From contig NZ_QXMG01000001.1 in the NCBI RefSeq assembly GCF_003569765.1, forward strand, positions 248,001-312,000: 64,000 nucleotides of DNA, read 5' to 3'. The notes under the pieces were generated by a model. It saw nothing but the letters and a program-made list of their open reading frames with translations. It was not told where the DNA came from and searched no databases. Positions 5,935 through 63,184 of this stretch are shown piece by piece. A program made the translations under genes and the position numbers. This stretch comes from Caldimonas tepidiphila (GTDB lineage Bacteria; Pseudomonadota; Gammaproteobacteria; Burkholderiales; Burkholderiaceae_C). How positions within the stretch are numbered: position 1 is the first letter of the stretch; every line of letters starts with the position of its first letter.

Positions 5935-6557
5935 TACAGCACTCCCATCAGGTAGACAAAGGTGAACACGCCGATCCAGATCACGTCCAGGAAGTGCCAG
6001 AACATCGACAGGCAGACCAGGCGGCGCTTGTTTTCCTTGATCAGGCCGAGCTTCTGGACCTGGAACATCAGCGTGACGAGCCAGATGGTGCCGAAGGCCA
6101 CGTGCAGGCCGTGGGTGCCGACCAGCGCGAAGAAGGCCGACAGGAAGGCGCTGCGCTGCGGACCCGCGCCCTGCTCGATCAGGTGCGCGAACTCGTAGAT
6201 CTCGATGCCGAGGAAGGCCAGGCCGAACAGGCCGGTGACGCCCAGCCAGGTGAGCACGCCCTTCTTGTTGCCCTTGAGCATCGCGATCATCGCGAAGCCG
6301 TAGGTGATCGACGAGAACAGCAGCATCGCGGTGTTCGCCGCGATCAGCTTCAGGTCGAACAGGTCGGCCCCCGAGGGGCCGGCCGCGTAGCTCTTGCCCA
6401 GCACCGCGTAGACCGCGAACAGCACCGCGAAGATGAGGCAGTCGCTCATCAGGTACAGCCAGAAGCCCAGGAGCGTGCCGTGCTGCGGGTGGTGGTCGCC
6501 CTTGTCGTAGAAGAGCGGCGCCGGGCCGCCCGCCGTCAGAGTGGTGGATTGACTCAT
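5934..6557 (-). CDS. cyoC: Cytochrome o ubiquinol oxidase subunit III (CyoC)
   Basis: A 207-residue heme-copper oxidase subunit III of the quinol oxidase type with five transmembrane helices. Family motifs include [18 protein letters not shown] near the N-terminus, [11 protein letters not shown] in the middle, THGLHVAFG and the C-terminal [19 protein letters not shown]. The ATG at 6557 is chosen because it starts directly before the conserved region; the frame stays open further upstream but that part reads against cyoB. The gene starts 17 nt after cyoB ends and shares one base with cyoD. Confidence 0.95.
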
Positions 6558-6574
6558 GTTGTTTCTCGCTCGGC

Positions 6575-8578
6575 TCAGGCCCGCGCCGCCGCCAGCGCCA
6601 GGCTGCGGGCGTTCTCGGTGCGCGCCACGTCCTCGGCCGGGATGTAGAAGTCGCGCTTGTAGTTGAAGGTGTGCACGATGCACGCGACCACCGTCACGGC
6701 GAACGACACCGCGGCCAGCAGCCACATGTGCCAGATCAGCGCGAAGCCGAGGACCGTGCTCAGGCCCGCGATCACGACGCCGGCGGCGGTGTTCTTGGGC
6801 ATGTGGATCGGCTTGAAGCCGCTCTCCGGGCGCTGCGCGCCGCGCTTCTTCATGTCGGCCCAGGCGTCGATGTCGTGCACCACCGGCGTGAAGGCGAAGT
6901 TGTACTCCGGCGGCGGCGAGGAGGTGGACCACTCCAGCGTGCGGCCGCCCCAGGGGTCACCGGTGACGTCGCGCAGCTGCTCGCGGCGGAAGTAGCTCAC
7001 CACCAGCTGGAGGATGAAGGCGGCGATGCCGATCGCGATCAGCACGGCGCCGAGCGCGGCGATCTGGAACCAGATCTGCAGCGACGGGTCCTCGAAGCGG
7101 CTCATGCGGCGCGTCACGCCCATCAGGCCCAGCACGTACAGCGGCATGAAGGCGAGGTAGAAGCCGATCAGCCAGAACCAGAACGAGACCTTGCCCCAGA
7201 ACGGGTCGAGCTTGTAGCCGAAGGCCTTCGGGTACCAGTAGGTGATGCCGGCGAAGATGCCGAACAGCACGCCGCCGATGATGACGTTGTGGAAGTGCGC
7301 GATCAGGAACAGGCTGTTGTGCAGCACGAAGTCCGCCGCTGGCACCGCCAGCATCACGCCGGTCATGCCGCCGATCACGAACGTGACCATGAAGCCGATC
7401 GTCCACAGCATCGGCACCTCGAACTCGATGCGGCCGCGGTACATCGTGAACAGCCAGTTGAAGATCTTCGCGCCCGTCGGAATCGAGATGATCATCGTCG
7501 TGATGCCGAAGAAGGCGTTCACGCTCGCGCCCGAGCCCATCGTGAAGAAGTGGTGCAGCCACACGACGTAGGACAGGATCGTGATCACGACCGTGGCGTA
7601 GACCATCGACGCGTAGCCGAACAGCTTCTTGCGGCTGAAGGTCGACACCACTTCCGAGAAGATGCCGAACACCGGCAGAACCAGGATGTAGACCTCGGGG
7701 TGGCCCCAGATCCAGATCAGGTTCACGTACATCATGGCGTTGCCGCCGAGCTCGGAGGTGAAGAAGTTCGTGCCGACGTAGCGGTCGAGCGTCAGCAGCG
7801 CCAGCACCGCGGTCAGGATCGGGAACGCGGCCACGATCAGCACGTTGGTGCACAGCGAGGTCCACGTGAACACCGGCATCTTCATCAGCGTCATGCCCGG
7901 CGCGCGCATCTTGACGATGGTCGCGATCAGGTTGATGCCTGACAAGGTTGTCCCGACCCCCGACAACTGCAGGGCCCAGATGTAGTAGTCCACCCCCACG
8001 CCCGGACTCTGCAGGATGCCCGACAGCGGCGGGTAGGCCAGCCAGCCGGTGCGCGCGAACTCGCCCAGGAACAGCGACACCATCATCAGGATGGCGCCGC
8101 TGGCGGTCATCCAGAAGCTGAAGTTGTTCAGGAAGGGGAAGGCCACGTCGCGCGCGCCGATCTGCAGCGGCACCACGTAGTTCATGAAGCCCGTGATCAG
8201 CGGCATCGCCACGAAGAAGATCATGATCACGCCGTGGGCGGTGAAGATCTGGTCGTAGTGGTGCGGCGGCAGGAAGCCGGCGTTGTCGCCGAAGGCGATG
8301 GCCTGCTGGGCGCGCATCAGCAGCGCGTCGGCGAAGCCGCGCATCAGCATGACCAGGCCCAGGATCATGTACATGATCCCGATCTTCTTGTGGTCGATGC
8401 TGGTGATCCAGTCGCGCCACAGCGGGCCCCAGACCCGGTAGTAGCTCATCGCGGCCAGCAGGGCGATCCCGCCCAGCACGACGGCCACGAAGGTCATGTG
8501 AACGATGGGATCGTGGGGTATCGCCTCCCAACTGAGGCGCCCCAGGATTAGCTTGCTGAGTTCGGGATGGTCGAACAT
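6575..8578 (-). CDS. cyoB: Cytochrome o ubiquinol oxidase subunit I (CyoB)
   Basis: A 667-residue catalytic subunit with about 15 transmembrane helices, which reduces oxygen to water and pumps protons using ubiquinol. The metal ligands are visible: His in FTAHGVIM (low-spin heme), [10 protein letters not shown] with the His-Tyr pair and the proton-channel Glu, the VWLHHFF pair for CuB, and [12 protein letters not shown] for both hemes. The quinone-site residues of CyoB are present too (RGFAD and HHYDQ), so this is a quinol oxidase and not a cytochrome c oxidase. It is preceded by cyoA (59 nt gap) and followed by cyoC. Confidence 0.97.
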
Positions 8579-15513: not shown

Positions 15514-18500
15514 ATGTCCTCCGGAGTCATCCGCATCCGCGGCGCGCGCCAGCACAACCTCAAGAACCTCGACCTCGACCTGCACACCGGCGAGCTGACG
15601 GTGGTCACCGGTCCGAGCGGCTCGGGCAAGTCGAGCCTGGTGTTCGACACGCTCTACGCCGAGGGCCAGCGCCGCTACGTCGAGACCTTCAGCGCCTATG
15701 CGCGCCAGTTCCTCGACCGCATGGACCGCCCTGCGGTGGACAAGGTCGAGGGCGTGCCGCCGGCGATCGCGATCGACCAGACCAACCCGGTGCGCACCTC
15801 GCGCTCGACGGTCGGCACGATGACCGAGCTCAACGACCACCTGAAGCTGCTCTACGCGCGCGCGGCGCAACTCTTCGACCGCGTCTCGGGCAAGCCGGTG
15901 CGGCAGGACGACCCGGAGTCGATCTATGCCACGCTGATGGCGCGCACCGCGCCGCTCAACCCGCGGCTGGTGGTGACCTTCCCGGTCGAGCTGCCGGCGC
16001 AGACCTCGCAGGAAGAGATCGAGCAGTGGCTGTCGGCGAGCGGCTTCACGCGCGTGCAGGCCGAGCGCGAGGTGGCGACGCCGACCGGGCCGCGCAAGCT
16101 GCTCGACGTGGTCGCCGACCGCTTCCGCATCCAGACCACCGAGAAGGCGCGCGCGATCGAGGCGCTGGAAGTGGCGCTCAAGCGCGGCAGCGGGCGCGTC
16201 AACGTCTACGTGTTGCAGGAGGAGGGCGAGCCCGAGCTGTGGCGCTTCTCGTCCGGCCTGCACTGTCCCGACAGCGACCTGCGCTACTCGCAGCCCTCGC
16301 CTGCGATGTTCTCGTTCAACTCGGCCTTCGGCGCCTGCGAGGCCTGCCGCGGCTTCGGCCGCGTGATCGGCGTGGACTGGGGCCTGGTGATCCCGGACCA
16401 CCGCAAGACGCTGCGCTCGGGCGCGATCAAGGCGATCCAGACGCCGGCCTGGAAGGAGATCCAGGCCGACCTGCTGAAGTACGCCGGCGCGGCCGGCATC
16501 CCGCGCGACACCGCGTGGAGCCAGCTGTCGGAGGAGCACCGGCACTGGGTCATCGAGGGCGGCGCGGACTGGAAGGGCGACTGGAACCGCCAGTGGTACG
16601 GCATCCGCCGCTTCTTCGAGTACCTCGAGAGCAAGGCCTACAAGATGCACATCCGCGTGCTCTTGTCCAAGTACCGCAGCTACACGCCCTGCCCGGCCTG
16701 CGGCGGCGCGAGATTGAAAACCGAGGCGCTGCAGTGGCGGCTCGGCGACAAGGCCGGCGCTGACGCGGTGCTGCCGCCCGCGCAGCGCTTTCTCCCCGTG
16801 GGCGTGTCGTGGAGCCGCGCGCAGCTCGAAGCGTTTCCGGGCCTGAGCCTGCACGACCTGATGCTGCTGTCGATCGAGCGGCTGCGGCGCTTCTTCGACA
16901 CGCTGACGCTTCCGAGCACGATGCTCGACGAGGCGCTGGAGCTGCTGCTGCTGGAGATCCGCACGCGGCTGAAGTACCTGTGCGACGTGGGCCTGGGCTA
17001 CCTGACGCTGGACCGCCAGAGCCGCACGCTCTCCGGCGGCGAGGTGCAGCGCATCAACCTGACGACCGCTCTGGGCACCTCGCTCGTGAACACGCTCTTC
17101 GTGCTCGACGAGCCGAGCATCGGGCTGCACCCGCGCGACATGAACCGCATCGTCGAGGCGATGCAGCGCCTGCGCGACGCTGGCAACACGCTGGTGGTGG
17201 TCGAGCACGACCCGGCGGTGATGCTCGCCGCCGACCGCGTGCTCGACATGGGCCCGGGGCCGGGCGCCGCCGGCGGCCAGCTCGTGTTCGACGGCTCGCC
17301 GGAAGAACTGAAGGCCGCGCCGACGCTGACCGGCACCTACCTGGGCGCGCGCCGGCAGGTCGGCATCGGCCTGCGCCGGCTGGTGGACGCGAGCACGCCC
17401 AAGCTCGTGATCGAGGGCGTGCGCGAGCACAACCTGCGCAATGTCTCGGTGGAGTTCCCGCTGCAGCGCCTGGTGTGCGTGACCGGCGTGTCCGGCTCGG
17501 GCAAGAGCACGCTGATGCAGGACGTGCTGTTCCCGGCGCTGGCGCGCCACTTCGGCCAGGCCACCGAGACGCCGGGCGAGCACGACCGGCTGCTCGGCGC
17601 CGACTGGCTCACCGACGCGGTCTTCGTCGACCAGTCGCCGATCGGCAAGACCGCGCGCTCGAACCCCGCGAGCTACGTCGGCGCCTTCGACACGATCCGC
17701 GCGCTGTTCGCCGACTCGTCGCTCGCGCGCGAGCGCGGCTACGGCGCCGGCATGTTCAGCTTCAACGCCGGCGACGGGCGCTGCCCGACCTGCGGCGGCT
17801 CGGGCTTCGAGCATGTCGAGATGCAGTTCCTCTCCGACGTCTACCTGCGCTGCCCGGATTGCGACGGCCGGCGCTACCGCGCCGAGATCCTCGAGGCGAC
17901 GATCGAGCGCGGCGACAGGGCGCTCAACGTCGCCGACGTGCTGGAGCTGACGGTCGCCGAGGCGGTGAAGCTCTTCGGCGCGGACCGCGAGGTGGTGCGC
18001 GCGCTGCAGCCGCTCGCCGACGTGGGCCTGGACTACGTCAAGCTCGGCCAGCCGGTGCCGACGCTGTCGGGCGGCGAGGCGCAGAGATTGAAACTCGCCG
18101 GCTTCCTGGCCGAGGCGGCGAAGAACGCCACGGCGAGCAAGCAGAAGCTCGCGAGGAAGGGGACGCTGTTCCTCTTCGACGAGCCGACCACCGGCCTGCA
18201 CTTCGACGACATCGCCAAGCTGATGCGCGCGTTCAGGAAGCTGCTCGACGCCGGCCACTCGCTGATCGTGATCGAGCACAACCTCGACGTGATCCGCGCG
18301 GCGGACTGGCTGGTCGACCTCGGCCCCGAGGGCGGCGAGGCCGGTGGCGAGATCGTCTGCACCGGCACGCCCGACGACGTGAAACAACACCCCACCTCGC
18401 ACACCGGCGCCGCGCTGCGCGACTACGACAAGGCGCTCGGCCAGGGCGGCCTGGCGGTCGAGGAAGGCCGGCCGCTGCAGAGCGTCGCGCTCGCGCGCCG

Positions 18501-21258
18501 CCGCGAGGCGCGGCAGGCGGGTGAAGAGGTGATCCGCATCGTCAACGCCCGCGAGCACAATTTGAAATCGCTCGACGTGGACATCCCGCGGGGGAAATTC
18601 AGCGTCGTCACCGGCGTGTCGGGCTCGGGCAAGTCCACGCTCGCCTTCGACATCCTGTTCAACGAGGGCCAGCGCCGCTACCTCGAGTCGCTCAACGCCT
18701 ACGCGCGCTCGATCGTGCAGCCGGCGGGCCGGCCCGAGGTGGACGCGGTCTACGGCATCCCGCCCACCGTCGCCATTGAACAACGCCTGTCGCGCGGCGG
18801 GCGCAAGAGCACGGTGGCGACCACCACCGAGCTGTACCACTTCCTGCGCCTGCTCTACGTGAAGCTCGGCGTGCAGCACTGCCCGGTGTGCACGCCGGAC
18901 GCGCGCGTGCCGGTGCAGCCGCAGACGGCGGAGTCGATCGCCGCGCAGCTGATGCGCGACTACCGCGGCCGCCACATCGGGCTGCTGGCGCCGCTGGTCG
19001 TCAACCGCAAGGGCGTCTACACCGACCTCGCGAAATGGGCCAAGGCGCGCGGCCACACCCACCTGCGCGTCGACGGCGCGTTCCTGCCGGTCGATCCCTG
19101 GCCGCGGCTGGACCGCTTCAAGGAGCACACGCTCGAGCTGCCGGTCGGCGACATCGTCGTCGCGCCGGCCAACGAGGCCGAGCTGCGCGCGCTGCTGGGC
19201 CAGGCGCTCGAGGCCGGCAAGGGCGTGCTGCATGTGCTCAGCTCCCTCGACGGCCTGCGCGAATCGATGGCCGAGGGCGGCAGCGGCGCCGGCATCGGCG
19301 AGCTGCGCGTGTTCTCCACGAAGCGCGCCTGCCCGAGCTGCGGCACCAGCTTCCCCGAGCTGGACCCGCGCCTGTTCTCCTACAACAGCAAGCACGGCTG
19401 GTGCGGCGACTGCGTCGGCACCGGCGTCGCGCTCACGCGCGAGCAGCGCCGCGCGCTCGACGACTCGATCCGCGACGACGGCGAGCGCGGCCGCGAGCAG
19501 AGCTTCGCCGAGCCCGAGGTCGAGGACGTCGGCGAGCAGCCCTGCGGCACCTGCCACGGCGCGCGGCTGAACGCGACCGCGCTCGCGGTGCGCTTCCATG
19601 GCGAATCGATCGCGCAGATCGCGGCGCGCTCGGTCGAGGAGGCCCGCGACTGGGTCGAGGCGCTGCCCCTGGGCGAGCGCGAGCAGGCGATCGCGCGCGA
19701 CGTGGTCAGCGAGATCCGCAACCGGCTCGAGTTCCTCGGCGACGTGGGCCTGGGCTACCTGACGCTCGACCGCGCCGCGCCGACGCTGTCGGGCGGCGAG
19801 GCGCAGCGGATTCGCCTCGCGGCGCAGCTCGGCTCCAACCTGCAGGGCGTGTGCTACGTGCTCGACGAGCCGACCATCGGCCTGCACCCGCGCGACAACC
19901 GCATCCTGCTCGATGCCCTGGAAAAGCTCGGCAGCCTCGGCAACACGCTGGTGGTGGTCGAGCACGACGAGGACACGATCCGGCGTGCCGACCACATCAT
20001 CGACATCGGCCCCGGCGCGGGCAAGCGCGGCGGCCGCGTGGTCGCCCAAGGAACGGCCGCGGAGCTGGCGCGCCACGAGGACTCGCTCACCGGCCGCTTC
20101 CTCGCCCGGCCGCTGCTGCACCCGCTGCAGCCGCGGCGGCCGGTCGCGCGCGACAGCGCGCGGCTCGTCGTGAAGGGCGCCGAGCTGCACAACCTGCGCA
20201 AGGTCGATGCCGGGGTGCCGCTGCACCGGCTGGTCGCGGTGACCGGCGTGTCCGGCTCGGGCAAGTCCACGCTCGCGCGCGACGTGCTGCTCGCCAACGT
20301 GCAGGCCATCATCGCCAGCCGGGGCAAGGGGCTGCCGGCGCCGCAGGGCTGCAAGTCGGTCGAGGGCTGGGAGCTGATCGACCGCGTGCTGGAGGTGGAC
20401 CAGACGCCGATCGGCAAGACGCCGCGCTCCTGTCCGGCGACCTACATCGGCTTCTGGGACATGATCCGCAAGCTCTTCACCGAGACGCTGGAAGCCAAGG
20501 CGCGCGGCTACGCCGCGAGCCGCTTCAGCTTCAACACCGGCGCCGGCCGCTGCCCGGCCTGCGAGGGCCAGGGCCTGCGCACGATCGAGATGAGTTTTCT
20601 CCCTGACGTGAAGGTGCCCTGCGACGTCTGCCACGGCGCACGCTTCAACGCCGAGACGCTGGCCGTCACCTGGCGCGGCAGGAACATCGGCGAGGTGCTG
20701 AACATGGAGGTCGACGAGGCGGTGGAGTTCTTCGCCTCGATGCCCTCGATCGCGCACCCGCTGCAGCTGCTCAAGGACGTGGGCCTGGGCTACCTGACGC
20801 TGGGGCAACCGTCGCCGACGCTGTCGGGCGGCGAGGCGCAGCGCATCAAGCTCGTCACCGAGCTGTCGAAGGTGCGCGACGACGTGACGCGCCGCGGCAA
20901 CAAGGCGCCGCACACGCTCTACGTGCTCGACGAGCCGACGGTCGGCCTGCACATGGCCGACGTCGAGAAGCTGATCCGCGTGCTGCACCGGCTGGTCAAC
21001 GGCGGGCACAGCGTGGTGGTGATCGAGCACGACCTCGACGTGATCGCCGAGGCCGACTGGGTGCTCGACCTCGGCCCCGAGGGCGGCACCGGCGGCGGCC
21101 GGATCGTCGTCGCCGGCACGCCCGAGCAGCTGGTCGCGTCGGGCAGCCACACCGGCGTGTCGCTCGCGCCGGTGCTGGCGCGGCAGGCGCCGGCGGAAGA
21201 ACAGGACGAGGGGACGACGGACACACACGAGGCGCCCTTGGCGCAACAATCCCGGTGA
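15514..21258 (+). CDS. uvrA: Double-length UvrA-like excinuclease subunit A
   Basis: A 1914-residue protein made of two complete UvrA-like units joined head to tail. Four Walker A motifs begin near residues 33 (GPSGSGKSS), 658, 1034 and 1578 (GVSGSGKST). Four ABC signatures (LSGGE) lie at about 506, 851, 1425 and 1770. Zinc-type cysteine pairs (for example CEAC, CPAC, CPTC, CPSC, CPAC) occur in each half. A normal UvrA is about 940-970 residues with two ATPase cassettes and works as a dimer to detect DNA damage for UvrBC; here one chain holds the whole dimer equivalent. Fused UvrA-like proteins are known in several Burkholderiales beside a standard UvrA, so this is probably the second copy (UvrA2-like), and its repair role is inferred. 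No SOS box was seen upstream. Its stop codon overlaps the next start (TGATG). Confidence 0.92.
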   Translation: MSSGVIRIRGARQHNLKNLDLDLHTGELTVVTGPSGSGKSSLVFDTLYAEGQRRYVETFSAYARQFLDRMDRPAVDKVEGVPPAIAIDQTNPVRTSRSTVGTMTELNDHLKLLYARAAQLFDRVSGKPVRQDDPESIYATLMARTAPLNPRLVVTFPVELPAQTSQEEIEQWLSASGFTRVQAEREVATPTGPRKLLDVVADRFRIQTTEKARAIEALEVALKRGSGRVNVYVLQEEGEPELWRFSSGLHCPDSDLRYSQPSPAMFSFNSAFGACEACRGFGRVIGVDWGLVIPDHRKTLRSGAIKAIQTPAWKEIQADLLKYAGAAGIPRDTAWSQLSEEHRHWVIEGGADWKGDWNRQWYGIRRFFEYLESKAYKMHIRVLLSKYRSYTPCPACGGARLKTEALQWRLGDKAGADAVLPPAQRFLPVGVSWSRAQLEAFPGLSLHDLMLLSIERLRRFFDTLTLPSTMLDEALELLLLEIRTRLKYLCDVGLGYLTLDRQSRTLSGGEVQRINLTTALGTSLVNTLFVLDEPSIGLHPRDMNRIVEAMQRLRDAGNTLVVVEHDPAVMLAADRVLDMGPGPGAAGGQLVFDGSPEELKAAPTLTGTYLGARRQVGIGLRRLVDASTPKLVIEGVREHNLRNVSVEFPLQRLVCVTGVSGSGKSTLMQDVLFPALARHFGQATETPGEHDRLLGADWLTDAVFVDQSPIGKTARSNPASYVGAFDTIRALFADSSLARERGYGAGMFSFNAGDGRCPTCGGSGFEHVEMQFLSDVYLRCPDCDGRRYRAEILEATIERGDRALNVADVLELTVAEAVKLFGADREVVRALQPLADVGLDYVKLGQPVPTLSGGEAQRLKLAGFLAEAAKNATASKQKLARKGTLFLFDEPTTGLHFDDIAKLMRAFRKLLDAGHSLIVIEHNLDVIRAADWLVDLGPEGGEAGGEIVCTGTPDDVKQHPTSHTGAALRDYDKALGQGGLAVEEGRPLQSVALARRREARQAGEEVIRIVNAREHNLKSLDVDIPRGKFSVVTGVSGSGKSTLAFDILFNEGQRRYLESLNAYARSIVQPAGRPEVDAVYGIPPTVAIEQRLSRGGRKSTVATTTELYHFLRLLYVKLGVQHCPVCTPDARVPVQPQTAESIAAQLMRDYRGRHIGLLAPLVVNRKGVYTDLAKWAKARGHTHLRVDGAFLPVDPWPRLDRFKEHTLELPVGDIVVAPANEAELRALLGQALEAGKGVLHVLSSLDGLRESMAEGGSGAGIGELRVFSTKRACPSCGTSFPELDPRLFSYNSKHGWCGDCVGTGVALTREQRRALDDSIRDDGERGREQSFAEPEVEDVGEQPCGTCHGARLNATALAVRFHGESIAQIAARSVEEARDWVEALPLGEREQAIARDVVSEIRNRLEFLGDVGLGYLTLDRAAPTLSGGEAQRIRLAAQLGSNLQGVCYVLDEPTIGLHPRDNRILLDALEKLGSLGNTLVVVEHDEDTIRRADHIIDIGPGAGKRGGRVVAQGTAAELARHEDSLTGRFLARPLLHPLQPRRPVARDSARLVVKGAELHNLRKVDAGVPLHRLVAVTGVSGSGKSTLARDVLLANVQAIIASRGKGLPAPQGCKSVEGWELIDRVLEVDQTPIGKTPRSCPATYIGFWDMIRKLFTETLEAKARGYAASRFSFNTGAGRCPACEGQGLRTIEMSFLPDVKVPCDVCHGARFNAETLAVTWRGRNIGEVLNMEVDEAVEFFASMPSIAHPLQLLKDVGLGYLTLGQPSPTLSGGEAQRIKLVTELSKVRDDVTRRGNKAPHTLYVLDEPTVGLHMADVEKLIRVLHRLVNGGHSVVVIEHDLDVIAEADWVLDLGPEGGTGGGRIVVAGTPEQLVASGSHTGVSLAPVLARQAPAEEQDEGTTDTHEAPLAQQSR

Positions 21259-57926: not shown

Positions 57927-58325
57927 ATGCCCTGGCGCCTCGTCCTGTTGTGGTTGTGCATCGCCCTGCTGCCCCTGCGCGGCTGGGCGGGCGTCGCCAT
58001 GCCGGCGCCCGCGGCGGCCGCGCCTGCCGCGGCGGTCCAGGAGGCGGCAGCCCGGCCTTGCCACGGCGCGGCCGCGGTCGAGAACCTGCAGGAAGAATTC
58101 CACGAACATCGCCACGGCGCGACGGCGCACGCCGACGCTGCCGCCTCGATGCAGCCGGGCGCGGGCACCTGCGCGCTGTGCGACATCTGCCATGGCGCGG
58201 TCGCGCCGCCGGTGCTGGCCTTCGAGGGCTTCGCGCCGATGAATCCGGGCGCGCCACCCGCCTGGGAGCCGCGGTCGCCCGGCCGGCTGGCCACGCACGA
58301 GTTGTTCCGACCTCCCCGCGCCTGA
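57927..58325 (+). CDS. Small secreted Cys/His-containing protein of the copper cluster
   Basis: A 132-residue protein with a signal peptide (about 1-22, PWRLVLLWLCIALLPLRGWA). The mature part has a His-rich stretch (EFHEHRHG, around 58-65) and a CxxCxxCH-like motif in CALCDICHG (around 82-90). These suggest metal binding, and gene context points to copper. It resembles small DUF2946-type proteins found in copper-response loci, but I cannot confirm the family. It starts the seven-gene plus-strand cluster. Confidence 0.65.
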   Translation: MPWRLVLLWLCIALLPLRGWAGVAMPAPAAAAPAAAVQEAAARPCHGAAAVENLQEEFHEHRHGATAHADAAASMQPGAGTCALCDICHGAVAPPVLAFEGFAPMNPGAPPAWEPRSPGRLATHELFRPPRA

Positions 58326-58460
58326 TCGCCGAGACGCGTCGCGCGCCCCGTGCCGCGACGCCCGACGCCGGCCTGCCGCTTTTTCCGGCCTGGCCGTCCC
58401 GTGCCGCCCCGCCTGTCGCCCCGACACGCGGTGCGCACGCTGTCCCGGAGCGATCCGTCG

Positions 58461-58922
58461 ATGAATCCCATTCCTTTGCGGCCGGCCCTCGCGCTGGCAT
58501 TCGCGGCCCTGGCCCTCGCGCTGCCGGTCCGCGCCGAAATCCCCTACCGCTCGGCCTTCGAGGCGGTGCGTCCCCACACCGATCCGCAGGCCCTCGGCTG
58601 GCGCGCCGCCAACGAGCAGGTGGCGGCGCTCGGCGGCCACGCGGGTCACCTGCGGGCCGCGGCCGCACCCGCGGCGCCCGCCACGCAGCCGCAAGACAGC
58701 CCTCCGGCCGGCACGCCGGCACCCGCAACGCAGCAGCCGGTACACGGCGCTCACGGCGCCTCGGGCGAGCGCACCGCCGCAGGCGAAGGCGGCATGCCGG
58801 CTTGCCCGATGCACGCGCAGATGCCTGCCCAAATTCACGGGCAGATGCACGGACAGATGCACGGCAAGACGCAGGGCATGCGCTGCCATGGCGGCGCGCC
58901 GCAAGCCGGAGGCGTGCGATGA
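58461..58922 (+). CDS. Exported His/Met-rich protein of the copper cluster
   Basis: A 153-residue protein with a signal peptide (about 1-25, cut after VRA). The N-terminal mature part is a conserved-looking block (EIPYRSAFEAVRPHTDPQAL then GWRAANEQVA). The middle is Ala/Pro-rich linker and the C-terminal 30 residues hold repeated HGQM units (HGQMHGQMHGKTQGM) plus CPMHAQM and RCHGG. Met/His repeats bind Cu(I) in CopA/CopB-like proteins. It overlaps the TolC-like gene by four bases (ATGA). Function inferred only from composition and context. Confidence 0.7.
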   Translation: MNPIPLRPALALAFAALALALPVRAEIPYRSAFEAVRPHTDPQALGWRAANEQVAALGGHAGHLRAAAAPAAPATQPQDSPPAGTPAPATQQPVHGAHGASGERTAAGEGGMPACPMHAQMPAQIHGQMHGQMHGKTQGMRCHGGAPQAGGVR

Positions 58923-60325
58923 GGAGAGGACCCGCCTTCAGGCTCGCCGTGCCGGTGCTGGCCGCGCTGCTGGCCGGCTGCGCCTCGCTCGACCCCGGGC
59001 AGGCCACCGGCGAGGCCTCGCGCCGCATCGAGCCGCTCGCCGGCGAGGGCGTGGCCCTGTCGCGCGACGCCGCGGACCGCGCCGCGCGCGAGGCTCGCGT
59101 CGCGCAATGGCTGGCCGCGCCGCTCGCCCAGGACGACGCGGTGCGGCTCGCGCTCGTCAACAGCCCGGCGCTGCAGTCGATGCTGGCCGCGAGCTGGGCC
59201 GCGCAGGCTGAGGCGCGCCAGGGCGGGCGGCTGCCCAACCCGCGGCTCGCGCTCGAGCGCCTGGTGCAAGGGCACGACGTCGAGATCGGCCGCGCGCTGA
59301 GCTTCGGCCTGCTCGACCTGCTGACGCTGCCGCTGCGCCAGCGCGCCGCGACGCAGGCGATCGAGGCCGAGCGCCTGCGCCTGGCGCAGGAGGTGCTCGC
59401 GCTCGGCCTGCAGGTGCGCCAGCAGTGGGTGCGCGCGGTCGCGGCGCAGCAGCTGCAGCACTACCACGCCGAGGTGCAGGAGGCGGCCGAGGCCGCCGCC
59501 GAGCTCGCGCGCCGCATGCAGGCGGTCGGCAACTGGAGCCGGCTGCAGCGCGCGCGCGAGCAGGCCTTCCACTCCGAGGCCAGCGCGGGTCTGGCGCGCG
59601 CGCGCCAGGCCGCGCTCGCCGAGCGCGAGGCGCTGGTGCGCCTGCTCGGGCTCGACGCGGCGCAGGCGCAGTCGCTGCGGCTGCCCGAGCGCCTCGCGGA
59701 GCTGCCGAAGCAGCCGATCTCCGCCGAGGCGGTGCTCGCGTCGGCCAAGGAGGACCGGCTCGACCTGCGGCTCGCGCGCCAGCGCCTCGCCGCCGCGCAG
59801 CGCGCCGAGGGCAGCACGCGCTGGAGCAGCGTCGGCGACCTGGAGCTCGCCTACATCCGCAACAGCGAGACGCACGAACCGGTGCAGCGCGGCTGGGAGC
59901 TCGAGATCGCGCTGCCGCTGTTCGACCTCGGCGACGCGCGCCGCGCCGGCGCGTCCGCGCAGACGCTCGCCGCGCTCGCGCAGCTGCGGCAGGTGCAGCT
60001 CGAGACCGCCTCGCAACTGCGCGAGCGCTACCACGCCTGGCGCAGCGCGCACGACATCGCGCGCCACTACCGCGACGAGCTGGTGCCGCTGCGCAAGACC
60101 ATCGCCGAGGAGATGCTGCTGCGCTACAACGGCATGCTCGTCGGCGTGTTCGAGCTGCTGGCCGACGCACGCGAGCAGCGCGCCAGCGTGATCGCCGCGA
60201 TCGAGGCGCAGCGCGACTTCTGGCTCGCCGACGCGGCGCTCGAGGCCGCGCGGCTCGGCGCGCCGCTCGCGCCCGCCCCCCTCTCCGCGCCAGGTGCCGC
60301 GGCGACCGCCCCCCAAGGACACTGA
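58919..60325 (+). CDS. TolC/CusC-family outer-membrane lipoprotein
   Basis: A 468-residue outer-membrane efflux protein. The lipobox is LLAGCASLD near residue 20, so it is lipid-anchored. The rest is helical with the two-repeat pattern of the OEP family (RLALVNSPALQSMLA, then RRMQAVGNWSRLQRAREQ in repeat 1 and LQLRERYHAWRSAHDIA-like in repeat 2). CusC-type proteins form the outer-membrane channel of metal pumps. No CusA or CusB homologue lies nearby, so its partners are unknown or elsewhere. Confidence 0.9.
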   Translation: MRRGPAFRLAVPVLAALLAGCASLDPGQATGEASRRIEPLAGEGVALSRDAADRAAREARVAQWLAAPLAQDDAVRLALVNSPALQSMLAASWAAQAEARQGGRLPNPRLALERLVQGHDVEIGRALSFGLLDLLTLPLRQRAATQAIEAERLRLAQEVLALGLQVRQQWVRAVAAQQLQHYHAEVQEAAEAAAELARRMQAVGNWSRLQRAREQAFHSEASAGLARARQAALAEREALVRLLGLDAAQAQSLRLPERLAELPKQPISAEAVLASAKEDRLDLRLARQRLAAAQRAEGSTRWSSVGDLELAYIRNSETHEPVQRGWELEIALPLFDLGDARRAGASAQTLAALAQLRQVQLETASQLRERYHAWRSAHDIARHYRDELVPLRKTIAEEMLLRYNGMLVGVFELLADAREQRASVIAAIEAQRDFWLADAALEAARLGAPLAPAPLSAPGAAATAPQGH

Positions 60326-60326
60326 G

Positions 60327-61712
60327 ATGACGACGAGACGACTCTTCCTCGGCGGCGCGGCGCTCGCCGCCGCCGCCGTCGGCCGCGCGGCGATGGCCGC
60401 GCTGCCCGAGCCGGTGCTGCGCACCGACACCGCTTCCGCGCCTCCGCTCGAGCCCTCGGCCGGGCGGCCCTACCGGCCGGTCGTGACGCTCAACGGCTGG
60501 AGCCTGCCCTTCCGCATGAACCAGGGCGTGAAGGAGTTCCACCTGGTGGCCGAGCCCGTGATCCGCGAGTTCGCGCCGGGCATGAAGGCGCAGCTGTGGG
60601 GCTACAACGGCTCCTCGCCCGGCCCGACCATCGAGGTGGTCGAGGGCGACCGCGTGCGCATCTTCGTCACCAACCGCCTGCCCGAGCACCACGCGGTGCA
60701 CTGGCACGGCCAGCGCCTGCCCAACGGCATGGACGGCGTCGGCGGCCTCACGCAGCCGCACATCCCGCCCGGCAAGACCTTCGTCTACGAGTTCGAGGCG
60801 CGGCGCCCCGGCACCTTCATGTACCACCCGCATGCCGACGAGATGACGCAGATGGCGATGGGCATGATGGGCTTCTGGATCACGCACCCGAAGGACCCGA
60901 AGCGCACGCCCGGCTACGCCGACTGCGACCGCGACTTCGTGTTCCTTCTCAACGCCTTCGACATCGAGCCCGGCAGCGCGACGCCGAAGGTCAACACGAT
61001 GCTCGACTTCAACCTCTGGTGCTTCAACAGCCGCGTCTTCCCGGCCATCGACCCGATGGTGTGCCGGCTCGGCGACCGCGTGCGCATCCGCGTCGGCAAC
61101 CTGACGATGACCAACCACCCGATGCACCTGCACGGGCACGAGTTCGTCGTCGCCGGCACCGACGGCGGCTGGACGCCGCCCGGGTCGCGCTGGCCCGAGA
61201 TCACCGCCGACATCGCGGTCGGGCAGATGCGCGCGCTGGAGTTCATCGCCGACGAGCCCGGCGACTGGGCCTTCCACTGCCACAAGAGCCACCACACGAT
61301 GAACGCGATGGGCCACGACGTGCCGACGATGATCGGCGTCGACCACCGCGAGGTGGTGCAGAAGATCCAGAAGCTGATCCCCGACTACATGGTGATGGGC
61401 GAGCGCGGCATGGCCGACATGGGCGAGATGGAGATGCCGCTGCCCGACAACACGCTGCCGATGATGACCGGCACCGGCCCCTTCGGCGCGCTCGAGATGG
61501 GCGGCATGTTCACCACCGTCAAGGTGCGCGAGGGCCTCGCGCGCAACGACTGGCGCGACCCCGGCCACTACCGGCACCCGGCCGGCACCGTGGCCTACGA
61601 ATGGAGCGGCGCCACGCCGGCGCCGGCGCGTGCCGCCGCGCCGGCCTCCGCCTCTGACAACCCGCCGCTGCGCGCACGCAAGCCGCGCGAAGGAGAACCC
61701 CATGCGCATTGA
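60327..61712 (+). CDS. Periplasmic multicopper oxidase
   Basis: A 461-residue multicopper oxidase with a Tat-type signal (TTRRLFLGGAA). The four copper-binding blocks are present in order: HWHGQRLPNGMDGV, YHPHADEMTQM, HPMHLHGHEF, and FHCHKSHHTMNAMG with the type 1 Cys. Met-rich stretches occur (QMAMGMMG and MADMGEMEM). It likely oxidises Cu(I) to the less toxic Cu(II), as CueO and PcoA do. It starts 1 nt after the TolC-like gene and overlaps the cupredoxin gene by 11 nt. Confidence 0.93.
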   Translation: MTTRRLFLGGAALAAAAVGRAAMAALPEPVLRTDTASAPPLEPSAGRPYRPVVTLNGWSLPFRMNQGVKEFHLVAEPVIREFAPGMKAQLWGYNGSSPGPTIEVVEGDRVRIFVTNRLPEHHAVHWHGQRLPNGMDGVGGLTQPHIPPGKTFVYEFEARRPGTFMYHPHADEMTQMAMGMMGFWITHPKDPKRTPGYADCDRDFVFLLNAFDIEPGSATPKVNTMLDFNLWCFNSRVFPAIDPMVCRLGDRVRIRVGNLTMTNHPMHLHGHEFVVAGTDGGWTPPGSRWPEITADIAVGQMRALEFIADEPGDWAFHCHKSHHTMNAMGHDVPTMIGVDHREVVQKIQKLIPDYMVMGERGMADMGEMEMPLPDNTLPMMTGTGPFGALEMGGMFTTVKVREGLARNDWRDPGHYRHPAGTVAYEWSGATPAPARAAAPASASDNPPLRARKPREGEPHAH

Positions 61713-62220
61713 TCTTTCCCTGCTGCGTCCGGCGCTCGCCGCCGGCCTGTGCACCGCACTGCTCGCGGCGCTGCCCGCCGCCGCGCTCGCGCACGGCGCC
61801 GCCGGCCATGCGCCGAAGGCGGCAACGGCTGCTCCGTCGACCGAGTCCTACCCCTGGGGCCGCGAGGGCCGCGCCGCCGACGTGACGCGCACCATCGAGG
61901 TCGACATGAAGGACGCGCTGCGCTTCGTGCCGGGCGAGCTGCGCTTCAGGCGCGGCGAGACGGTGCGCCTGGTGGTGCACAACAGCGGTCGGGTGATGCA
62001 CGAGCTGGTGCTGGGCACCGAGGCCGAGCTCAAGCGCCATGCCGAGCTGATGAAGCAGCACCCCGGCATGGAGCACGACGAGCCCTACATGGCGCACGTC
62101 GCGCCGGGCGAGCGCGCCGAGATCGTCTGGACCTTCGACAAGCCCGGCCGCTTCATGTACGGCTGCCTGCTGCCCGGGCACTTCGAGGGCGGCATGGTCG
62201 GCCGCATCGTCGTGCGATGA
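61702..62220 (+). CDS. Periplasmic cupredoxin-like copper protein
   Basis: A 172-residue protein with a signal peptide (about 1-30, ending ALA). A single cupredoxin domain carries a likely type 1 copper site: His in VMHELVLG, and Cys, His and Met in CLLPGHFEGGM. An additional His/Met-rich insertion (KRHAELMKQHPGMEHDE) lies before the Cys. It may store copper or pass electrons or copper to the oxidase. AAGGAG precedes the ATG by 6 nt. Confidence 0.9.
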   Translation: MRIDLSLLRPALAAGLCTALLAALPAAALAHGAAGHAPKAATAAPSTESYPWGREGRAADVTRTIEVDMKDALRFVPGELRFRRGETVRLVVHNSGRVMHELVLGTEAELKRHAELMKQHPGMEHDEPYMAHVAPGERAEIVWTFDKPGRFMYGCLLPGHFEGGMVGRIVVR

Positions 62221-62355
62221 ACCTGCCGCCGATGCGCAGGCGCCGCGATCCGTGAGCGTTTGCGCACTGTTTCGTGCACTGATTGAACCCTCGGCACGCG
62301 CACCGGCTCCAATGCCGGAGCGGCCCGCGTGCCGACATCCCCCGAGGAGTTCCCG

Positions 62356-62826
62356 ATGAATTCACGCCGCCAGTTCCTTCTCGGCGCCACGGCCGCCGCG
62401 ACCGCGCTCGCGCTCGGCCCGGCGCTCGCCGCGCCGGCGAAGCCGCAGATCGAGGTCTGGAAGTCGCCCAGCTGCGGCTGCTGCCAAGGCTGGGTCGAGC
62501 ACCTGGAGAAGAACGGCTTCGAGGTCAAGGTCAACGACGTGCCGGGCCCGGCCGACTATCGCGAGAAGTTCGGCCTCGCCGCGCAGTACGGCTCCTGCCA
62601 CACCGCCAAGGTCGGCGGCTACGTGCTCGAGGGCCATGTGCCGGCGCGCGAGATCCACCGGCTGCTGAAGGAGAAGCCGCAGGCGCTCGGCCTCGCGGTG
62701 CCCGGCATGCCGGTCGGCTCGCCCGGCATGGAGGTCGAGAGCGGCCGCGTCGACGCCTACGAGGTGCTGCTCGTCACGAAGGACAACCGCGCCAGCGTCT
62801 ACCAGCGCTACGCCGCCAAGGCTTGA
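62356..62826 (+). CDS. DUF411 metal-binding protein
   Basis: A 156-residue exported protein. The signal has a Tat-like SRRQFLLGA. The DUF411 core (about 35-150) holds KSPSCGCCQGWVEHL, AAQYGSCHTAKVGGYVLEGHVP and GMPVGSPGME. Members occur in copper-resistance loci and are thought to bind copper through these Cys and Met residues. GAGGAG precedes the ATG by 6 nt. Confidence 0.9.
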   Translation: MNSRRQFLLGATAAATALALGPALAAPAKPQIEVWKSPSCGCCQGWVEHLEKNGFEVKVNDVPGPADYREKFGLAAQYGSCHTAKVGGYVLEGHVPAREIHRLLKEKPQALGLAVPGMPVGSPGMEVESGRVDAYEVLLVTKDNRASVYQRYAAKA

Positions 62827-62899
62827 GCCGCGGCGAGGCGCCCCCAACTACCGATGAGGCGCGCGGCCGCGCCGCGCCCGAGAACCCTGGAATCCCGAG

Positions 62900-63184
62900 A
62901 TGAAGAAGCTGATTTCCCTGATGATCGCCCTGCTCGGCGCCACCGGCGCCTTCGCGCAGTCCCCGCTCTCCGAGGGCGAGGTGCGCAAGATCGACAAGGA
63001 GCAGGGCAAGGTCACGATCAAGCACGGCGAGATCAAGAACCTCGACATGCCGCCGATGACGATGGTCTTCCGCGCCCAGCCGCCTGCGCTGGTGGACAAG
63101 GTGCAGGTCGGCGACAAGGTGCGCTTCCAGGCCGAGAAGGTCAACGGCACCTACACCGTCACCGCGCTCGAGCGCGCGCAGTAA
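62900..63184 (+). CDS. CusF-like periplasmic copper-binding protein
   Basis: A 94-residue protein with a signal peptide (about 1-19, AFA cut). The mature part is a small OB-fold of the CusF family: IKHGEIKNLDMPPMTMVF supplies the His and two Met copper ligands. The Trp that caps the site in E. coli CusF is not in the expected place (an Asn-Leu precedes the Asp). CusF delivers Cu(I) or Ag(I) to a CusCBA pump or stores it. It ends the cluster. Confidence 0.92.
   Translation: MKKLISLMIALLGATGAFAQSPLSEGEVRKIDKEQGKVTIKHGEIKNLDMPPMTMVFRAQPPALVDKVQVGDKVRFQAEKVNGTYTVTALERAQ

Follow-up and report, generated by a model that had tools for sequence, protein, structure and literature searches.

A TolC-fold outer-membrane factor paired with a two-domain multicopper oxidase in a probable copper operon of Caldimonas tepidiphila

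Gene content of the locus

Seven plus-strand open reading frames (ORFs) occupy positions 57927-63184 of the window, by which we mean the whole 64,000-nucleotide stretch of Caldimonas tepidiphila DNA that was analysed. Checking the ORFs in the window confirmed the seven genes described in an earlier note on this DNA, including those for a TolC/CusC-like lipoprotein, a multicopper oxidase (MCO), a cupredoxin, a DUF411 protein and a CusF-like protein. The features are as follows.

57927-58325, plus strand: CopL/DUF2946/CutF-like upstream ORF (uORF), 132 residues; from its sequence, a probable cis-acting copper sensor
58326-58460, plus strand: intergenic leader with a hairpin over the probable ribosome-binding GGA of the P2 gene
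58461-58922, plus strand: P2, a small exported protein of 153 residues with a His/Met-rich C-terminus
58919-60325, plus strand: outer-membrane factor (OMF), a lipoprotein of the TolC/CusC fold, 468 residues; lipobox with C21; OEP, PF02321
59528-59539, plus strand: first helix-hairpin tip of the OMF, residues 204-207 (GNWS), a turn in the structure model
60125-60136, plus strand: second helix-hairpin tip of the OMF, residues 403-406 (YNGM), a turn in the model and the class signature
60327-61712, plus strand: two-domain MCO (P0003), 461 residues; Cu-oxidase_3 and Cu-oxidase_2
61275-61310, plus strand: HCHKSHHTMNAM, MCO residues 317-328, Cys-containing copper-ligand motif of the type-1 site in domain 2
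61702-62220, plus strand: CopI-like cupredoxin, 172 residues; Copper-bind
62356-62826, plus strand: DUF411/CopG protein, 156 residues; DUF411; Tat signal
62900-63184, plus strand: CusF-like periplasmic copper chaperone, 94 residues; CusF_Ec

The P2 stop codon overlaps the OMF start codon (ATGA), and a by-eye reading places argB and HPr at the flanks of the cluster. No RND, adaptor or ATPase gene was matched among the ORFs of the cluster with the Pfam families, which bears out the earlier statement that CusA, CusB and a P-type ATPase are missing; with neither permease nor adaptor, this is not a CusCFBA-type RND system.

The three genes at the 3′ end encode recognizable copper proteins. The cupredoxin matches Copper-bind above the curated cut-off (29.3 bits) and falls short of the CopI equivalogs NF051440 and NF047895 (102.7 against 280 and 61 against 200 bits). 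The DUF411 protein also exceeds its curated cut-off (95.4 bits), has a Tat signal (17.9 bits, cut-off 16.7) and the motif CGCC, which agrees with the CxCC of CopG, and matches 6wis at 1.9e-30, the structure of Pseudomonas aeruginosa CopG (PMC8456105). The last protein matches CusF_Ec (PF11604) with 102.5 bits, again above the curated cut-off, and 1zeq at 9e-7. CopC had no match anywhere in the own genome.

The MCO contains Cu-oxidase_3 (130.9 bits, residues 82-189) and Cu-oxidase_2 (111.7 bits, residues 219-333), both above the curated cut-offs, in addition to a twin-arginine signal recognized by eye and a long Met-rich C-terminal extension. Domain 1 carries HPH and domain 2 carries HCHKSHHTMNAM with the Cys ligand, of which columns 317-326 and 328 are invariant in 6 aligned sequences; two-domain MCOs with the T1 site in domain 2 are termed "type B". 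The score against the CopA/PcoA oxidase family TIGR01480 is far lower than required (151.8 against 478.95 bits). Ranked by sequence, the solved relatives are 2zwn, 4f7k ("Laccase"), 6vow ("multicopper oxidase") and 3g5w, of which 4f7k and 6vow are longer chains. Two-domain MCOs are expected to be homotrimers, and 2zwn and 3g5w are trimeric. A two-domain laccase of Streptomyces is likewise described as a trimer (PMC10419308).

The upstream ORF and copper regulation

The first small ORF (P0001) has a Sec-type signal sequence as judged by eye, the motif CALCDIC and the C-terminal residues FRPPRA, and it is the first gene of a metal operon, as are the CopL, DUF2946 and CutF-like uORFs. Its match to CopL_fam (NF033807) spans nearly the whole length at 22.9 bits, under the cut-off of 40, and the Pfam search gave no match to DUF2946 (PF11162) in the window uORF. 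A profile of the uORF family finds the window uORF at E 8.9e-26, with that uORF itself in the training set. In an alignment of 60 proteins, comprising P0001 and 59 of its 111 distinct relatives (the 52 others include the truncated L118 and most rows from the sample of the order), P129 and P130 are invariant and C82, C85 and C88 are conserved in at least 90%. In the full set of 117, CxxC occurs in 106 and PP in 114. Among 60 scanned uORFs, 34 match CopL and 23 match CzcI at E 0.01 or better, and 19 match DUF2946 at E 0.1 or better.

Most such operons start with a CopL/CutF-like uORF or have an adjacent CopRS pair instead: the uORF stands alone in 102 of 151 loci and CopRS alone in 30, with both in 9 and neither in 10, an alternation that has little strength left when relatedness is taken into account (median p 0.06). 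A metal regulator is probably present in the cluster, as the resemblance of its first ORF to copper-sensing uORFs suggests, and the claim that there was none is probably wrong in view of the sub-cut-off CopL match and the Cys and PP signature. The same applies to one of the "two small unknowns" of the earlier note, which is probably the CopL/CutF-like uORF; the second is the small exported protein P2.

The leader behind the uORF folds with a minimum free energy of -68.1 kcal/mol (z -2.6), a value equalled by 2 of 200 shuffles of this single sequence, and a 4-bp hairpin, CGGA-GCGA-UCCG at 58446-58457, is predicted from the same single sequence to mask the probable ribosome-binding GGA of the P2 gene. 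A consensus scan found no promoter, and no clear CueR-type operator was seen by eye upstream of 57927. In the search for copper regulators elsewhere in the genome, which the earlier note had advised, CueR (168.8 bits) was matched on contig C5, just downstream of a heavy-metal ATPase, and no CopR/CusR-type regulator exceeded the cut-off (best 174.8 against 279.2 bits). The uORF end has a C-over-G stretch that, in 71 of 117 loci, falls within the highest 10% when compared with operon stretches of equal size. We give it no weight as a hint of a Rho terminator, as in CruR, since intergenic and coding DNA differ in composition anyway.

An outer-membrane factor class linked to the oxidase

The OMF matches OEP (PF02321) with 82.6 bits, above the curated cut-off. 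Because searches of PDB sequences with two OMF alignments gave zero matches (one at E 0.01 or better, the other at E 1 or better), the evidence for its fold consists of the Pfam match and models. The structure model (pLDDT 88.2, pTM 0.86) has four strands (109-117, 120-130, 307-317 and 323-331) and two helical hairpins, and Foldseek relates it to TolC and CusC at 3e-13 to 3e-12. The first tip turns between helices 137-203 and 208-243 and the second between helices 339-403 and 407-446; G204 in the former and Y403, N404 and M406 in the latter are invariant in 52 sequences. The YNGM motif of the second tip was present in 158 of 166 OMFs from MCO loci, and a YNGM-like motif in none of 25 pump-type OMFs.

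An OMF homologue was identified by profile match upstream of the MCO in all 166 evaluable loci, which are what remains of 170 MCO loci after 4 that begin at a contig end, and no more than 100 bases separate it from the MCO match in 157 of the 162 loci measured. Searched from the other side, in 160 genomes of the order, the OMF class yielded 52 profile matches, corresponding to 51 genes in 50 genomes, and all 51 adjoin MCO sequence: 49 by coordinates, one next to an MCO cut by a contig end and one running into a partial MCO. Of 158 distinct loci, 4 have pump genes in the same co-directional run, in every case together with a pump-type OMF; anywhere in the fetched stretch such genes occur in 32 of 158, and 11 of these 32 have no recognised pump-type OMF there. 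Judged by gene neighbourhood, this OMF class accompanies the two-domain MCO and not efflux pumps.

In the genome scoring, which covered the best 4 first-look candidates per genome in the pump search and the best 10 in the linkage search, 15 of 62 MCO genomes had no CusA/CzcA-type pump above the cut-off, and 8 of the 15 have a four-strand OMF. Genomes of this kind may hold further pumps, of the RND or ABC type, with adaptors that could act through the OMF. A single frame joining OMF and MCO in locus L245 was rejected as a fusion; both parts are truncated, and deletion or misassembly is likelier than a designed fusion. The conserved order of the two genes may equally reflect co-regulation. We found no description of such an OMF-MCO pair, or of a barrel-less TolC, in the open-licence literature.

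According to the earlier note, the lipoprotein might work with a remote pump, and a cusBA operon elsewhere without its own cusC would explain the set simply. Such an operon was looked for and not found. Contig C12 of the own genome carries a complete run of OMF, adaptor, RND, CusF and CusF (cusCBAFF), whose CusA scores 1535.8 bits to that of E. coli, and a second CusA/CzcA-type pump on contig C29 also adjoins an OMF; a remote cusBA lacking cusC is therefore rejected. Because cusCBAFF has its own cusC and the OMF class accompanies the MCO, the absent pump is no gap. It is nevertheless conceivable that the OMF acts in the usual way as the outlet of a distant pump, CusBA or another RND or ABC system, and stands beside the MCO through shared copper induction. 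The fold with its four strands would suit this explanation, nine RND-family places were found in the own genome (one a 33-bit partial match), and TolC of E. coli serves many pumps. We consider it unlikely: both CusA/CzcA-type pumps of the own genome have adjoining OMFs, some genomes without such a pump above the cut-off keep a four-strand OMF, the gene is linked to the MCO throughout and not to RND or ABC adaptors, and YNGM stands in place of the tip sequence of the 25 pump-type OMFs. The proposal of a remote partner is thereby weakened.

Moreover, relatives that could not act as ducts exist. Of 158 distinct loci, 32 have an OMF that is without at least two of the four beta strands and retains YNGM; the barrel is kept in the other 126, the window included (the variant-tip loci L131, L138, L179 and L218 stand outside this count and the tree). 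A lipobox is present in 119 of the 126 OMFs with a barrel and in 1 of the 32 without. P2 is 28-35% identical to three plasmid homologues, and its W-AN core recurs fused onto the barrel-deficient homologues, in 24 of 32 compared with 0 of 126 with a barrel. On a FastTree tree of the MCO, from which four duplicates had been dropped, barrel deficiency requires at least 6 changes, with 3 independent contrasts on supported branches; the large clade has a support of 59. Caldimonas manganoxidans is among the species with a barrel-deficient OMF, and no uORF was found there. For barrel loss with CopRS or the uORF, the tree offers 3 supported independent pairs, too few for an association. Three proteins were withdrawn as candidates, since the strand count gave all four strands: L176 and L148, "short" by motif distance, and L090, apparently barrel-less through the choice of start codon.

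The main barrel-deficient clade has 17 members of 359-370 residues, with 64% mean column identity and 50 invariant columns. The member that was modelled, from an alignment that included barrel-type relatives, has no barrel strands and, unlike 14 of the 17 aligned members, no match in Pfam; its best structural matches are OMFs (Foldseek E 3e-6), and by VIA the first 29 entries, which are OMFs, have Z 18.9-13.6 and the next 7.2. As alignments and this model indicate, with alignment as the basis outside the modelled clade, the outer-membrane barrel is lost in several lineages that retain both the helix tips and their MCO partner. One could argue that these are decayed OMF genes and that the pairing is hitch-hiking in copper islands. 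Some divergent members do match the profiles weakly (two at 29-31 bits), and the L245 frame resembles a deletion or misassembly. Against this, the main clade is uniform and its members keep signal-like N-termini and the tips and carry the P2 motif; decay is a very improbable explanation. Because some relatives have lost the membrane-spanning part, the OMF is probably not a pump outlet. These relatives suggest that outer-membrane exit is not its essential role; most lineages nevertheless keep the barrel, usually with a lipobox, so for them a role in the outer membrane or as a channel is important.

Proposed function and relation to known systems

Our favoured reading, to which we assign a probability of roughly 0.6, is an operon that detoxifies copper(I) in the periplasm independently of a pump and in which the TolC-fold protein is the partner of the oxidase, through a contact that we infer. 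The uORF would be translated and exported, and copper on its cysteines would alter the progress of the ribosome at the C-terminal PP; by analogy with CutF, for which this has been demonstrated, the effect would switch on the downstream genes. CusF, CopG and the cupredoxin would supply the MCO, which would turn Cu(I) into less toxic Cu(II). The helical tube of the OMF would serve as a docking platform that holds the MCO by the YNGM tips of its periplasmic end, and a trimeric MCO would match a trimeric tube. In the window species the OMF would tether the MCO to the outer membrane and might offer Cu(II) a way out, whereas relatives deficient in the barrel would form a soluble complex. The other proposal of the earlier note, periplasmic oxidation with a different exit route, comes closer, except that the barrel-deficient forms suggest exit to be inessential.

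A more specific and tentative version, which we hold at less than even odds, is a class of TolC-fold proteins serving no pump, each a trimeric tube with its YNGM end capped by a trimeric oxidase and the three-fold axes aligned. In most lineages the tube would keep the oxidase at the outer membrane; where the barrel and nearly always the anchor were lost and P2 was mostly fused, it would become a soluble scaffold.

The detoxification operon has its closest competitor in an analogue of PcoAB/CopAB, in which the OMF replaces PcoB/CopB and acts at the outer membrane to move or sequester copper. The two readings overlap; what sets the analogue apart is that it cannot do without the outer membrane. 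An oxidase and an outer-membrane protein do follow a CopL-like ORF, and the plasmid homologues sit among copper genes, in records that label the OMF genes "TolC family protein". However, PcoB is a different barrel protein to which the OMF shows no homology, PF02321 being its sole Pfam match. In addition, separate CopB-like ORFs were encountered, with 3 best matches among the first 112 loci, and the barrel-deficient forms suggest that the outer-membrane location is dispensable. We regard the analogue as a possible but not the favoured account.

TolC-fold proteins are taken to be the outlets of efflux pumps, and a widespread MCO-linked class, partly on plasmids and able to shed its membrane portion, would call for that view to be corrected. 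If the detoxification reading is true, an outer-membrane channel has turned into a soluble scaffold, and the OMF-MCO pairs offer a simple test of what an oxidase needs at the outer membrane. A probable copper-sensing uORF is also added to a widespread copper operon.

Among known systems, PcoAB/CopAB (CopL-CopA-CopB) pairs a copper oxidase with an outer-membrane protein downstream of an ORF of the CopL type; the window differs in having a TolC-fold OMF rather than PcoB and an MCO far below the CopA model. E. coli CusCFBA is alike in the OMF fold (CusC, 3pik) and in a CusF-like protein, but the window cluster has no CusA or CusB, and the cus run elsewhere has its own OMF. The two-domain laccases and MCOs 2zwn and 3g5w are relatives of P0003 by sequence, to which P0003 adds about 70 residues in front, about 130 Met-rich residues behind and a dedicated OMF. 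CutO of the Rhodobacter capsulatus operon cutFOG (CutF, CutO, CutG) is not known to be of the two-domain type. It is described as larger, with T1 Cys473 and a Met-rich stretch that separates domain 1 from domain 2. In cutFOG, the CutF uORF is followed by a Tat-exported MCO and a CopG-like protein (PMC9973294, PMC8456105); the likeness to the window lies in a uORF with Cys and C-terminal PP that heads the operon, and the difference in the absence of OMF, P2, cupredoxin and CusF. The survey in PMC9973294 reports OEP (PF02321), then TonB-like proteins and PCuAC, downstream of CutF-like genes and assigns those OEPs to RND efflux systems, whereas the OEP behind the window uORF is linked to an MCO instead.

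The copper cluster and the pumps of its genome

The seven plus-strand genes described in the earlier note (window 57927-63184) were confirmed, and they are flanked by minus-strand genes that we read by eye as argB and HPr.

Genes of the cluster in order of transcription
P0001, plus strand, first gene: 132 aa, exported by eye, with CALCDIC and a C-terminal FRPPRA; the upstream ORF (uORF)
P0002 (P2), plus strand, second gene: 153 aa, His/Met-rich end
P0007, plus strand, third gene: 468 aa, outer-membrane factor (OMF) lipoprotein; OEP Pfam match over cut-off
P0003, plus strand, fourth gene: 461 aa, multicopper oxidase (MCO); Cu-oxidase_3 and Cu-oxidase_2 Pfam matches over cut-off
P0004, plus strand, fifth gene: cupredoxin; Copper-bind Pfam match over cut-off
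P0005, plus strand, sixth gene: DUF411; Pfam match over cut-off
P0006, plus strand, seventh gene: CusF; Pfam match over cut-off

The stretch from P2 to the cupredoxin is tightly packed because the OMF start falls within the P2 stop and the cupredoxin start within the end of the MCO gene, and no plus-strand terminator-like site was found within the seven-gene run. The absence of a pump from the cluster itself also holds, there being no RND-type set among its seven genes. The genome G000 (5.47 Mb, 178 contigs, completeness 99.69%), in which the window occupies 248001-312000 of contig C1, has nine RND-family places, of which one is a 33-bit partial match. Two RNDs are of the CusA/CzcA type (1364.6 and 784.8 bits vs a cut-off of 701.45) among the five of the nine places taken into this scoring, and a separate scan likewise gave two. 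The pump on contig C12, at 1535.8 bits against E. coli CusA, is a true CusA relative. According to the earlier note, a cusBA operon elsewhere without its own cusC would explain the set simply; no such operon was found in G000, and the C12 run, OMF-adaptor-RND-CusF-CusF, carries its own OMF. The two CusF-like ORFs of C12 (locus L183, 7116-8109) lie in tandem downstream of cusA. The pump on contig C29 has a same-strand OMF nearby. In addition, three heavy-metal ATPases score over cut-off, as does a CueR on contig C5 with a heavy-metal ATPase directly in front of it; no CopR/CusR over cut-off was found in G000. This genome thus has both ATPase export and Cus efflux outside the cluster.

Elsewhere in the window, a plus-strand frame of 1914 aa at 15514-21258 carries UvrA interaction and DNA-binding domains together with matches to ABC-type ATPases; its product is a UvrA-like protein of unusual length. 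Opposite it, the minus strand is open for 1969 codons, with no family match there.

Pairing of the OMF with the MCO

We collected 170 annotated MCO loci (window 1, plasmid 5, relatives 26, named 80, order sample 58), of which four begin at a contig end. An OMF-homologue profile match lies upstream of the MCO in all 166 assessable loci (109 + 57), and in the 162 loci whose OMF was also found by its tip motif, the median distance from the end of the OMF frame to the MCO match is 18 bases (at most 100 in 157). The order sample comprised 160 genomes of the window's order, each at least 95% complete; the MCO was found in 62 of them at a threshold of E 1e-90. The OMF profile A8, scored on the ten top first-look candidates of each genome, gave 52 matches at E 1e-45 or better in 50 of the 160, representing 51 OMF genes, one having been split. 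The MCO adjoins the OMF by coordinates for 49 of these 51; in L246 the OMF adjoins an MCO cut by a contig end, and in L245 it is continuous in frame with a partial MCO. From these counts, we consider that the OMF class and the MCO belong together. The L245 frame (6333-7931, minus strand) lacks the tip of the OMF and, of the oxidase, most of what precedes the HCH motif, and we read it as a deletion or misassembly.

Pump genes share the co-directional run in only 4 of 158 distinct loci, with a pump-type OMF also there in all four. They occur anywhere in the fetched stretch in 32 of the 158; a pump-type OMF accompanies them in 21, and none was recognised by small profiles in 11. Moreover, scoring of the best four candidates per genome gave no CusA/CzcA-type pump over cut-off in 15 of the 62 genomes with the MCO; in 8 of these 15, the OMF has the complete set of four strands.

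The OMF-MCO set is widespread and in part mobile. The OMF matched 334 plasmid records by tblastn, 28 of them over at least 80% of the query, and it adjoins a 'copper oxidase' in all five that we looked at (Comamonas antarctica, Polaromonas naphthalenivorans, Pseudoalteromonas donghaensis, Massilia and Burkholderia multivorans), across which MCO identity is 70-73%. The choice of cupredoxin, DUF411, CusF and CopCD differs among the five, only Comamonas having the full set of the window's later genes. On the Comamonas and B. multivorans plasmids, a separate, neighbouring TolC-adaptor-RND set has a TolC of its own. Scanning genomes with the MCO alignment yielded at least 565 confirmed places, and the 80 loci kept are, by title, mostly from Betaproteobacteria, with some from Gammaproteobacteria.

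Loss of the barrel and retention of the helix tip

The model of the window OMF is an ordinary OMF (pLDDT 88.2, pTM 0.86) with strands at 109-117, 120-130, 307-317 and 323-331 and structure matches to TolC, CusC and OprM; YNGM forms the turn joining helices 339-403 and 407-446. In a set of relatives, same-genus included, the homologue has 359-370 aa, without a lipobox and lacking strand-bearing stretches in both repeats. An OEP match at E 0.1 or better was obtained for 14 of 17 short homologues (best 3.5e-8), and none at this level for the modelled Caldimonas manganoxidans homologue. The model of the latter (pLDDT 82.9), from an alignment of 18 barrel-deficient rows (query counted) and 14 barrel-type rows, shows a pair of long helical hairpins and lacks barrel strands. 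In structure searches, OMFs match it best (Foldseek E 3e-6). The first 29 VIA entries (Z 18.9 to 13.6; rmsd 3.7-8.4 over 239-268 residues) are OMFs by title, save three titled 'membrane protein', which we take to be OMFs; the next entry, unrelated, has a Z of 7.2.

Of 162 proteins aligned with P0007, 34 lack two or more of the four strands, or 32 of 158 after four duplicates were dropped; the MCO loci L081 (G006, same genus) and L139 (Caldimonas manganoxidans ATCC BAA-369) were judged duplicates. On the MCO tree (FastTree), barrel deficiency needs at least six changes and falls in a clade of 22 (support 59), a clade of 5 and five single lineages, with three independent contrasts on supported branches. 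A lipobox occurs in 119 of 126 proteins with a barrel vs 1 of 32 without. By regular expressions composed after the motif was seen, the P2 core motif lies in the same frame as the OMF in 24 of 32 without a barrel vs 0 of 126 with one. The lone lineages L093, L189, L227 and L233 are further, apparently separate barrel-deficient forms; the P2 motif was found by search in the first three, and a similar stretch by eye in L233.

The second hairpin tip is retained despite barrel loss, reading YNGM in 158 of 166 (otherwise YNAM three times, HNGM, YNDM, YSGM, YFGM and YNAN), and a YNGM-like motif occurs in 0 of 25 pump-type OMFs of the same loci. Of 162 OMF proteins, 123 end in His, barrel present or not; this His is a possible conserved copper ligand.

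The upstream ORF, a proposed mechanism and known systems

The search for P0001-like ORFs covered same-strand positions 900-4500 bases ahead of the MCO and found one in 117 of 170 loci (112 of 158 distinct). CxxC is present in 106 of the 117 and a PP no more than 8 residues from the stop in 114, counts that depend on a profile trained on such proteins. In an alignment of P0001 with 59 of 111 relatives, P129 and P130 do not vary, while C82, C85 and C88 are each conserved in at least 90%. Family matches among these 60 are weak (CopL 34, CzcI 23, DUF2946 19; best E 4e-8), and P0001 itself is under the CopL cut-off. Among the 151 loci whose upstream sequence is long enough, the uORF occurs without CopRS in 102, an upstream CopRS without the uORF in 30, both in 9 and neither in 10 (Fisher p 2e-15, kinship ignored). 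On the tree, 11 independent pairs gave 5.4 opposite and 0.1 same; because the median p is 0.06, the apparent opposition of uORF and CopRS is suggestive only. The intergenic RNA of the window is predicted to fold more stably than shuffled versions (z -2.6); in the window sequence alone, a short hairpin spans the likely ribosome-binding GGA of P2. According to published work, CutF controls the oxidase CutO through a copper-dependent delay of CutF export, and CruR controls a transporter operon through Rho-dependent termination, where the effect of copper is reversed (PMC9973294; PMC9426467; PMC8456105).

Starting from the demonstrated cluster parts, OMF-MCO pairing and barrel loss, we propose that copper on the nascent uORF would switch the operon on. 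Oxidation of Cu(I) would fall to the MCO, copper around it would be handled by the cupredoxin, CusF and CopG, and the OMF would be the platform of the MCO. In the boldest step, a trimeric MCO would cap the periplasmic end of the OMF tube with three-fold symmetry, a natural arrangement because two-domain MCOs and OMFs are both trimers. The solved relatives 2zwn and 3g5w, first and fourth by sequence, are trimeric two-domain MCOs. A two-domain MCO trimer is also described in PMC10419308.

Our search of the open-licence literature found neither the OMF-MCO pair nor a barrel-less TolC homologue described. A survey of CutF-like ORFs lists OEP genes among the commonest neighbours and describes them as RND-pump-associated (PMC9973294). 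The window set comes nearest to cutFOG, PcoAB/CopAB and CusCFBA. It differs from CusCFBA in having no pump, from PcoAB/CopAB in being without PcoB and a CopA-type oxidase, and from cutFOG in its added OMF and two-domain oxidase; it shares parts with each of these systems and is a member of none.
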